Assembly (NCBI RefSeq): GCF_017874375.1
Contig: NZ_JAGGLK010000001.1
Location: forward strand, 124,001 to 188,000
DNA length: 64,000 nt
Source of the DNA: Methanohalophilus levihalophilus
GTDB taxonomy: Archaea; Halobacteriota; Methanosarcinia; Methanosarcinales; Methanosarcinaceae
Direction of reading: 5' to 3'
The notes beneath the pieces are model-generated. The model had not been told where the DNA came from, searched no databases, and saw nothing but the letters and a program-made list of their open reading frames with translations. The translations under genes were made by a program, and so were the position numbers. This document shows positions 4,739 through 47,998 of the stretch, piece by piece (within the stretch, counting starts at the first letter, position 1; each line of letters starts with the position of its first letter).

Positions 4739-4853
4739 TTGAAAAATCTCTCCGATTGCACATCGTGATTGTTATATCCTTCTTTAGCCTAATGGGATAC
4801 TTGCCTCTAATGCGTTCTTATGCTATAAAAATGTTGTAAAAGGTATGGTGAAA

Positions 4854-5306
4854 ATGGATTCCGAGAAACATACTTTGCTGGTTGTATCACATTGTCTTCT
4901 GAATCCCTCCTCAAGACTTTCAGGAATAAAACATCCTTCCAGAATTGATGTTGGGAAGTCAAATATTATGCAACTTCCATGCCCTGAACTGATATTCTTT
5001 GGCTCAAACCGGAGAGAAATAACAAAGGATCAATTGCAGCATGCATCATACAGGCGTTTCTGTCATGACCTTTTTGAACCATTTGCCGATATGATCGAAG
5101 AGCTGTATAATAAGGGGTTGGAGATCAAAATCGTTGGTGTTGGGAAAAGTCCTTCCTGTGCTGTTGAATATACTACAGTTGGAGGTCCGGCAGGCAAGGT
5201 TTTGGAGTTCTCTCATCAGCATGTAAAGGGTAAAGGTGTTTTTTTTGAGGAAATTGAAAGAGAGCTTTTTGAAAGAGGTATTTCCTTTCACACATGTGAA
5301 CATTAA
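4854..5306 (+). CDS. TudS-related putative desulfidase (CD3072-like)
   Basis: A protein of about 150 residues with Cys-centred motifs: SHCLLNPSSR near the N-terminus, QLPCPE in the middle and SPSCAVEYT after it. This set resembles the TudS/DUF523 group, whose members use three cysteines to hold an iron-sulfur cluster and remove sulfur from thiolated substrates. A role in thio-nucleoside turnover would suit the tRNA thiolase gene 1 kb upstream, but that link is inference. I chose ATG 4854 because GGTG at 4847-4850 sits at the right distance. ATG 4845 is too close to its own AAGGT. Confidence 0.72.
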   Translation: MDSEKHTLLVVSHCLLNPSSRLSGIKHPSRIDVGKSNIMQLPCPELIFFGSNRREITKDQLQHASYRRFCHDLFEPFADMIEELYNKGLEIKIVGVGKSPSCAVEYTTVGGPAGKVLEFSHQHVKGKGVFFEEIERELFERGISFHTCEH

Positions 5307-5330: not shown

Positions 5331-5338
5331 CTTATATA
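5331..5338 (+). promoter_or_regulatory. TATA box of the candidate small RNA
   Basis: cttatata at 5331-5338, preceded by an A-rich BRE-like tagaaata. It lies about 25 bases before the G that opens a perfect stem at 5362, the usual archaeal distance from TATA to transcript start. No protein start follows. Confidence 0.55.
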
Positions 5339-5359
5339 GCATTGCAAAGTCCTACAGTT

Positions 5360-5454
5360 GTGCTGGTGGGTTAAACTCTAATTTTCTTCAAACCCCACTC
5401 CCCAAATACACCAAACCCCCCATTAAACCCACCAGCTTTCTTCTATACTTTTTT
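5360..5454 (+). ncRNA. Candidate small RNA with long closing stem and C-rich loop
   Basis: An 11-bp perfect stem pairs 5362-5372 (gctggtgggtt) with 5426-5436 (aacccaccagc). It encloses about 50 bases that hold three C-runs (aaccccactcccc, acacc, aaacccccca) and little else. Six T's at 5449-5454 follow as a likely terminator, and a TATA box lies 25 bases upstream. No open frame is present. A C-rich single-stranded loop would be complementary to GGTG/GGGG ribosome-binding sites, so a translational repressor is an attractive guess. Methanosarcina mazei sRNA41, as I remember it, acts in this way. I have not matched the sequence to it, and function is inference. Confidence 0.5.
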
Positions 5455-5839: not shown

Positions 5840-5841
5840 TC
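5797..5841 (-). terminator. hppA: Terminator of the pyrophosphatase gene
   Basis: gaaaggtca (5822-5830) and tgacctttc (5833-5841) form a 9-bp inverted repeat overlapping the stop codon. On the minus strand it is followed by a long T-rich tract (complement of the A-rich 5797-5821), as expected for termination. Confidence 0.6.
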
Positions 5842-7858
5842 AGAAAATACCTGCTCCGATGAACAGGGAAGCGAACAGGATGGCCACCATGTTAACTACC
5901 TTGATAAGGGAGTTAAGTGCCGGACCGGCTGTGTCCTTGAATGGGTCACCAACGGTGTCACCAACGACTGCTGCTTTGTGAGCATCAGAGCCTTTTCCAC
6001 CGTGTTGTCCATCTTCAATAAGTTTCTTTGCGTTATCCCATGCTCCGCCACCGTTGTCCATTGTAAGGGCAAGCAGAAGACCGGATGCAATAATTCCGAT
6101 AAGGAGTCCTCCGAGTGCAAGCGGGCCGAGTACAACTCCTACGATCAATGGGGTTGCGACTGCAAGGAATCCTGGAATTGCCATTTCACGAATAGCTGCT
6201 GCGGTGACAATGTCCACACATTTTCCATATTCCGGTTTTGCAGTTCCTTCCATGATTCCGGGAATTTCACGGAACTGGCGACGTACTTCATTTACAATTC
6301 CAAACGCAGCCTTTCCGACTGCTTTCATGGTTACTGCACTGAAGATGAATGGCAAAAGAGCACCGATAAACAGGCCTACGAGAACCACAGGGTTATCGAG
6401 GCTGAGTGCACCCATGTCAAGATCAACCTTGTGACGGTAGTCTGCGAAAAGTGCAAGTGCACCGAGTGCTGCAGAACCGATTGCATATCCTTTTGTAACA
6501 GCTTTTGTGGTGTTACCTACTGCGTCGAGAGCATCGGTTGTGTTACGGACTTCTTCTGGAAGACCTGCCATTTCAGCAATTCCGCCGGCATTGTCAGTGA
6601 TTGGTCCGTAGGAGTCGAGTGTAACAATCATACCTGTTACTGAAAGCATTGCAGCTGCTGCAATTGCAATACCGTAAAGACCCATTGCTGGATCTGCGGC
6701 TCCACCGACAACAAAGAATGCTGCAAGGATACCGATTACAATAATTGCAAGAGGCAGGGCTGTACTTTCAAATCCGATTGCAAGACCTGAAATTACATTT
6801 GTTCCTGCGCCGGTTTCTGATGCTTTTGCAATGGTCTTAACCGGACGGTAGCTGGTTGAAGTGTAGTATTCTGTAAATACCACCATCAAGACCATAATTG
6901 CAATACCTATAAGGGATGCGTAATAAAGTGTGATGCTCATTCCCAGGAAAGTTGTTACAAAATAGAATGCACCGAGACAGAGAACTGCCGATACAACAAC
7001 TCCTTTGTAAAGCGCTTTCATAATCTTGCCATCATCACCGACTTTCACGAAGAATATGGAGATGACTGATGCAAAGATGGCCACTGCACCGAGAATGAGT
7101 GGATAAAGAATAGCGTTTGGATAAGCTGTAAGAAGCTGGCTTCCCAGCAACATTGAAGCAAGGACGGTTACTACATAGGTTTCGAACAGGTCAGCACCCA
7201 TTCCTGCACAGTCCCCGACATTGTCACCGACGTTGTCAGCAATGACGCCGGCATTACGTGGGTCGTCTTCAGGAATTCCTGCTTCTACTTTACCTACAAG
7301 GTCTGCTCCTACATCTGCAGCTTTGGTGAAAATACCGCCGCCAACCCTTGCGAAGAGACTGATAAGACTGGCACCGAAACCGAATCCTACTACCTGGTCA
7401 ACGTCTCCGAAGAGGATGTAGAACACACTGGTTCCGAGGAGAGCTAATCCTACTACTGCAAAACCGGTAACTGCTCCTCCCTGCACAGCAACGCTCATTG
7501 CGTCCTGAAGGCTACGGGAAGCTGCGTTAGCAGTCCTTACATTTGCACGTACGGATACGTTCATACCGATGTAGCCTGCGAGTGCGGAACTTGCAGCACC
7601 TACAAGGAATCCGATAACTACCCTGCCGCTGTTTTCTGCGATCAGGAAGTATATCATGAAAGCCAGAATAACGGCTACGATTGCTACTGTTTTATATTGA
7701 CGATTCAGAAATGCCATTGCCCCTTCTTGGATAGCCTTGGATATATCCTGCATCTTCTCATTTCCGGTTCCTTCCTTAAGAACACGGCTTGCGAAGAATG
7801 CGGAAAATACAAGACTTATGATACCTGCCAGGGGGGCCAGATATATTATATTCTCCAT
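5840..7858 (-). CDS. hppA: Membrane-bound ion-translocating pyrophosphatase (K+-independent type)
   Basis: A 672-residue polytopic enzyme that couples PPi hydrolysis to outward ion pumping. It has about 16 helices. The substrate-site acidic motifs [11 protein letters not shown] and [16 protein letters not shown] are intact, as is the C-terminal KDTAGPALN motif. At the key cation-site segment it reads GNTTKA, with Lys where K+-dependent enzymes have Ala (GNTTAA). By family knowledge this marks the K+-insensitive, proton-pumping class. The start is supported by gaggag just upstream on the minus strand. It is monocistronic and ends at a strong terminator. Biosynthetic PPi, including that from the AMP-forming acetyl-CoA synthetase nearby, would be its substrate. 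Confidence 0.95.
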
Positions 7859-47910: not shown

Positions 47911-47998
47911 GCGGGGGTTGCCGAGCCAGGCCAAAGGCGCTAGGTTGAGGGCCTAGTTTCGTAGGAATCCGCGAGTTCGAATCTCGTCCCCCGCACCA
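47911..47998 (+). tRNA. tRNA-Leu (anticodon GAG)
   Basis: A class II tRNA. Acceptor gcggggg (47911-47917) pairs with cccccgc (47988-47994), discriminator A, and CCA is encoded (47996-47998). The anticodon stem is ctagg/cctag with loop ttgaggg. The variable arm is long and the T arm is gcgag-ttcgaat-ctcgt. A T-rich TATA-like sequence (ttttatac) lies at about 47899-47906. Confidence 0.95.

Follow-up and report, generated by a model that had tools for sequence, protein, structure and literature searches.

Does the inverted repeat that lies between a desulfurase-like gene and a membrane pyrophosphatase gene of Methanohalophilus levihalophilus mark a gene for a small RNA and, if it does, on what would the C-rich loop enclosed by the repeat act? 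The locus is found near the start of the window, by which we mean the entire 64,000-nucleotide stretch of DNA that was analysed. The original prediction, made from the letters alone, had proposed a small RNA with a loop directed against Shine-Dalgarno sequences. Compensatory changes in the stem, a conserved promoter of its own, a conserved genomic place and a class-wide distribution strongly support the first of these proposals, and comparison of relatives strongly supports reading the locus as a genuine gene for a small RNA, one of a multi-copy family that spans the class Methanosarcinia and is absent from Rfam. The target of the loop is a matter of weighing several readings.

The hairpin and promoter in the window

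The plus strand carries, within 5332-5454, the TATA box, the perfect 11-bp closing stem and the T6 end that had been predicted there, together with a C-rich loop; the loop has the three expected C-runs (5393-5396, 5400-5403 and 5416-5421), while its length is 53 nt and not the 50 first given. The features of the locus are as follows.

4845-5306, plus strand: upstream gene, weakly 2-thiouracil desulfurase-like (PF04463, below the cut-off); context only
5332-5338, plus strand: TATA box TTATATA of the predicted small RNA promoter (sequence; family-wide TATA rule)
5362-5436, plus strand: small RNA hairpin (fold; covariance model matches of 78.9 bits with R1 and 54.0 bits with R2)
5362-5372, plus strand: closing stem, 5' arm GCTGGTGGGTT (fold, stems of relatives, covariation)
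5373-5425, plus strand: loop, 53 nt (sequence)
5382-5385, plus strand: U-run in the 5' half of the loop (U4 or longer in 95 of 96 distinct hairpin loops, a set biased by the 21-mer search)
5393-5403, plus strand: conserved loop core CCCCACUCCCC (93 of 96 distinct hairpins of the same biased set; mostly invariant columns in the 30-sequence alignment)
5416-5421, plus strand: second C-run of the loop (sequence and alignment)
5426-5436, plus strand: closing stem, 3' arm AACCCACCAGC (covaries with the 5' arm in relatives)
5449-5454, plus strand: T6 run, probable terminator (sequence; T5 enrichment downstream of family members)
5840-7858, minus strand: convergent downstream gene for a membrane H+ pyrophosphatase (PF03030), the conserved neighbour of the RNA

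The 23 nt that separate TTATATA from the stem place this TATA box at the distance found across the family (see below). Judged from the sequence, the 5' end of the RNA probably lies at about 5358-5362 and its 3' end close to the T6 run. The predicted RNA fold has an energy of -18.3 kcal/mol, its structure is exactly the closing stem, and it is more stable than most shuffled versions (z = -3.09; 2 of 200 shuffles equally stable). Since perfect 11-bp repeats with a spacer of 40-65 nt occur at 11 intergenic loci in the 1.99 Mb of host genome examined, the repeat alone would not decide for an RNA gene. It is uncommon rather than unique, and it is conservation that sets the hairpin apart from chance.

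Many small RNAs of Methanosarcina mazei carry small open reading frames (PMC11456600), which speaks for an alternative in which the RNA is the leader or the message of a small protein. Here the hairpin has no open frame, as had been noted at the outset: the frames opened by TTG and GTG at its 5' end stop within seven codons; with a G count of zero, the loop cannot hold ATG, GTG or TTG. There is also no gene on the same strand close downstream, and we regard this as the least probable of the explanations considered.

Covariation and distribution of the family

DNA searches of 111 genomes of the host's family recovered the loop in other genomes at 78-94% identity. At all 30 of the loci taken, 8 from the genus that includes the host (g1) and 22 from Methanolobus (g10), the loop sits inside an inverted repeat. 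In relatives it is conserved beside the membrane pyrophosphatase gene, and the arms that enclose it differ between groups and still pair, being GCUGGUGGG/CCCACCAGC, GCUAGCGGG/CCCGCUAGC, GCUGACGGG/CCCGUCAGC, UUGCGCGGG/CCCGCGCAA, UUGCACGGG/CCCGUGCAA and UUGCGUGGG/CCCACGCAA. Preservation of the stem by compensating changes, on which the original prediction had staked its validity, was thus looked for and found. In alignment A1, built with MAFFT without reference to structure and scored for a 10-pair stem on its 27 distinct rows, 98.5% of the stem cells are paired, and slid versions of the stem drop to 25-44%. Six of the 10 pairs have changed on both sides, and doubly changed cells number 44, against 11.3 +/- 3.5 in shuffles (none of 500 as high); these pair counts refer to sequences, not to independent events. 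Further pair types showed no excess in the same alignment (397 of 500 shuffles as high).

The covariance model R1 reaches about 67 bits or more in 34 of the 111 family genomes, namely 8 of 8 from g1 and 26 of 27 from g10. Its scores then fall from 66.9 to 51.5 bits, and below this gap hairpins are found in 171 of the 185 genomes of the order (E 0.1; the E-values of both models are rough). These hairpins are of one design, with a TATA box, a stem and a loop in which a U-run is followed by ACCCCCACUCCCCA, the core being doubled at times. The stem is of the GUGAGCGGG type, with arms GUGAGCGGGU/ACCCGCUCAC or the variants GUGGGCAGGU/ACCUGCCCAC and UAUGCGAGCGGG/CCCGCUCGCAUA, and the loop combines the U-run with CCCCACUCCCC and has almost no G (203 G and 3080 C in 7090 loop bases of 160 non-redundant hairpins).

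An exact 21-mer scan of named genomes yielded 76 stretches, from groups that include Methanosarcina, Methanolobus, Methanococcoides, Methanohalophilus, Methanosalsum, Methanomethylovorans, ANME-2 and Methanoperedens. The 21-mer also occurs in L165, a 3.1-kb contig labelled Acidobacteria that is probably mis-binned archaeal DNA; not all contigs with the 21-mer match R1 at E 0.01, and this one does not. A second model, R2, was built from 100 matches, many of them obtained through the exact 21-mer, so that conservation figures of that set are biased, and covariation was for this reason judged on A1.

With R2, the covariance search that the original prediction had proposed matched 174 of the 185 genomes of the order and 224 of the 237 genomes of the class, including 149 of 150 of good quality. 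Copies per genome range from 1 to 18, or to 19 in a more sensitive search, the highest number belonging to a single genome of family f5 (G178). Within the class, R2 found nothing in genus g6 (0 of 6 genomes), g8 (0 of 2) or family f6 (0 of 2), possibly through losses in small genomes, nor in G072 (72% complete), G100 (60%) and G141 (56%). In a phylum sample of 392 genomes, 84 match R2, 83 of them inside the class, and the one outside is a genome 56% complete with an E-value of 1.2e-5. The host genome has two R2 copies, at 55.9 and 54.0 bits, followed by a match at 15.2 bits (1.99 of 2.12 Mb searched, contigs C4 and C5 left out), and R1, run against the whole genome, retrieved the same two copies. 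The scores of the window hairpin (R1, 78.9 bits; R2, 54.0 bits) place it within the family; the window sequence was itself used in building both models, and independent support for membership therefore comes from the covariation in relatives.

Rfam 15 has no family above its gathering threshold at the window hairpin or at 19 related loci, the best sub-threshold match being 17 bits against a threshold of 50. We found no description of the family in the literature searched; it may be listed by number in tables of M. mazei or Methanolobus psychrophilus RNAs. Elsewhere in the window, ARAGORN calls a tRNA-Leu at 47911-47998, which is not listed above Rfam's tRNA threshold.

Promoters, neighbouring genes and sibling copies

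Among the 117 members with enough upstream sequence, a TATA match of at least 7/8 is present in 86, compared to 15 in shuffled sequence and 15 on the opposite strand. The distance from the end of the TATA box to the start of the model is 19-22 nt in 60 of these 86 and 26-28 nt in 15 more. A T5 run follows within 40 nt downstream in 48 of the 117 members versus 25 in shuffled sequence. G-U pairs outnumber A-C pairs in the stem, by 8 to 0 in A1 and 4 to 2 in A2, which weakly favours the C-rich strand as the one transcribed.

Positions were compared for 160 non-redundant hairpins, from which duplicates and opposite-strand self-matches had been dropped, and the loci proved to be fixed by subfamily. 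The type found in the window (29 of 30) and the main Methanosarcina type (16 of 23) have a common downstream gene cluster, the membrane pyrophosphatase as shown for the window, L303 and L022, and are probably orthologs on account of it; in L324, also from Methanosarcina, there is no pyrophosphatase neighbour within reach. Other subfamilies have their own sites, at topoisomerase VI B, between an Mrp antiporter subunit gene and Sua5, and at a MacB/FtsX permease.

A multi-copy inverted repeat with G-runs on the minus strand and a T-run behind it could also be a DNA element, whether a MITE-like mobile hairpin, a G-quadruplex former on the other strand or the terminator of the upstream gene. Such an origin is very improbable given the same flanking genes across genera, a TATA box whose fixed spacing is seen on the C-rich strand alone, the above-noted bias toward G-U pairs on that strand in both alignments, and a 53-nt loop unlike that of a terminator. 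Carriage of the family by viruses or plasmids was likewise rejected: the 21-mer had no match in viral contigs, where a looser pattern hit one contig without a hairpin, and plasmids had no match to the Methanosarcina member.

In Methanosarcina, neighbouring hairpins with the same stem and different G-poor loops are found in L336 (genome G082; 609-700, 1035-1138 and 1501-1585) and in L340, which suggests that these clusters are paralogs with changed targets. In one Methanolobus sister subfamily (e.g., L131, L134, L136 and L152), the TATA box is preceded by a conserved operator that comes near the 7-1-7 palindrome TCATCATTATGATGA and is similar in shape to a Fur-family box. Counted at 0-1 mismatch across eight Methanolobus genomes, operators of this kind number 36 forward and 36 reverse, as each palindrome scores on either strand, and the reversed control gives 4 and 3; the operators also precede genes for small proteins with signal-peptide-like starts.

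Possible partners of the loop

Sequence comparison delimits the parts of the predicted RNA: a conserved promoter, a compensated closing stem and a loop nearly free of G with a near-invariant CCCCACUCCCC beside a U-run. We propose that it is the product of a stand-alone noncoding RNA gene whose copies would be sibling regulators, each with its own promoter and all with one identical effector loop. This loop is expected to stay single-stranded because it is almost free of G; it would pair near some of the ribosome-binding sites, at stretches rich in G, and so block the entry of the ribosome, perhaps with an Lsm protein on its U-run. That the siblings act in this way, by start-site pairing on a subset of G-rich sites, we consider close to evenly balanced.

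Pairing was examined on 1814 host gene starts from rough gene calling. The original prediction that GGTG and GGGG sites dominate this genome was half right, as they are common (428 and 233 starts, respectively) but exceeded by GAGG (550) and GGAG (479). The window loop binds start regions better than coding regions, with means of -10.5 and -8.1 kcal/mol and with 379 versus 178 regions at -14 kcal/mol or better. This part of the anti-Shine-Dalgarno claim stood; the implied specificity did not, for 40 dinucleotide-shuffled loops match the window loop on start regions (mean, -10.8 +/- 0.4; 408 +/- 54 at -14), and in binding to the consensus Shine-Dalgarno sequence 374 of 500 letter shuffles equal or exceed the core. 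A global anti-Shine-Dalgarno loop with complementarity beyond base composition is accordingly rejected as stated. For the core, 85 of 900 start windows bind at -12 or better, compared to 66 +/- 12 for shuffles (3 of 60 reach 85). Start windows contain six-mers complementary to the core more often than coding windows do (of 1809; TGGGGG, 37 versus 0; GGAGTG, 42 versus 6), and most of these six-mers do not outnumber permutations of their own letters, the nearest to an excess being TGGGGG and GGGGGT. Genes preceded by strong candidate sites include those with PF00361, FMN_bind, RNA polymerase Rpb1 domain 5, GatB, SecD and PCMT domains. The stronger pairing of start regions and the slight excess of strong start windows are counted for start-site pairing, and pairing with a subset of G-rich start sites is a possible mode of action.

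Action in cis on the pyrophosphatase gene was rejected, in that the RNA is convergent with this gene, at about 385 nt from the gene's end, and the gene has a start site, AGGAGUUUUG, that is not rich in G. In G082 and G076, about 24 kb separate the main Methanosarcina member from the ACDS gene cdhA; against starts in G082, the loop of this member gives -7.0 kcal/mol with cdhA and -14.8 with the next gene, which has a GGGGG site, a comparison confined to these two genes.

Apart from the two RNA genes, the host genome has no exact complement of the core, and such a complement was rejected as the target. Its absence elsewhere also bears on the alternative that the RNA regulates or stabilizes a handful of particular mRNAs by pairing at 3' ends or in coding regions and not at ribosome-binding sites, as M. 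mazei sRNA154 is reported to stabilize some of its targets (PMC5867862). Sites one mismatch away from this complement, on the three contigs examined, lie in or away from genes without a pattern, and we hold this alternative to be unlikely.

Such constancy of the loop between paralogs and between families is not what mRNA pairing, with its drifting targets, usually shows, and it counts against start-site pairing. It fits the main rival, in which the hairpin presents an unvarying unpaired stretch rich in C and U to an RNA-binding protein, which it captures or guides (a titration like that by CsrB or 6S), and the copies set the level of free protein. The core hardly varies between paralogs or families, in contrast to the freely changing stem, the complement is not tuned to the Shine-Dalgarno sequence, and the two cores per loop in several subfamilies would raise protein binding. 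The analysis brought up no candidate protein, however, and some Methanosarcina paralogs retain the stem and alter the loop, which fits different RNA targets better. Weighing these points, we find binding of a protein a doubtful reading, though the strongest competitor to start-site pairing.

C-rich unpaired stretches, sibling copies and pairing at start sites are also features of the bacterial RNAs RsaE/RoxS, FsrA, IsrR and the LhrC siblings, which are unrelated in sequence to the present family and have other core motifs. Among methanogen RNAs, the stand-alone sRNA41 of M. mazei is said to mask ribosome-binding sites (PMC5867862). Marks of sRNA41 are pairing with several ribosome-binding sites in the ACDS operons and lower levels when nitrogen is limiting. 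The hairpin family is likewise stand-alone; it is class-wide and multi-copy. The duplicated sRNA162 and sRNA171 of M. mazei act on cis- and trans-encoded mRNAs, and sRNA162 is given as 191 nt long, with three stem-loops, a 39-nt linker and relatives only in M. acetivorans and M. barkeri (PMC3510493). With one stem, one large loop and a class-wide range, the hairpin family does not have the anatomy so described. A parallel is the loop of sRNA154, whose anti-RBS sequence masks glnA2; sRNA154 is set apart as an RNA with two loops, specific to nitrogen and described as conserved in Methanosarcina (PMC5867862). Nine conserved cold-induced small RNAs of M. psychrophilus R15 have a common box upstream of the promoter (PMC5378194); one Methanolobus subfamily of the hairpins resembles this set, as described, in also having a conserved upstream operator.

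The archaeal small RNAs of the papers compared are known from single genera; the hairpin family instead spans the class Methanosarcinia, whose members make or oxidize much of the world's methane. Its presence in 149 of 150 good genomes, in up to 18 copies and with hardly a letter of the loop changed, speaks for a basic role in regulation. A broader reading, which we advance tentatively and as short of an even prospect, is that of a near-universal RNA defining the class, with several differently controlled siblings per genome whose constant G-free CCCCACUCCCC loop would address a single conserved partner, either a protein or the translation start machinery. If this is true, different signals would feed one common posttranscriptional brake. 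Methanosarcina, with its genetics and with published transcriptomes where RNAs of the family should already show, offers a test bed, and the fixed loop could serve as bait for the partner.
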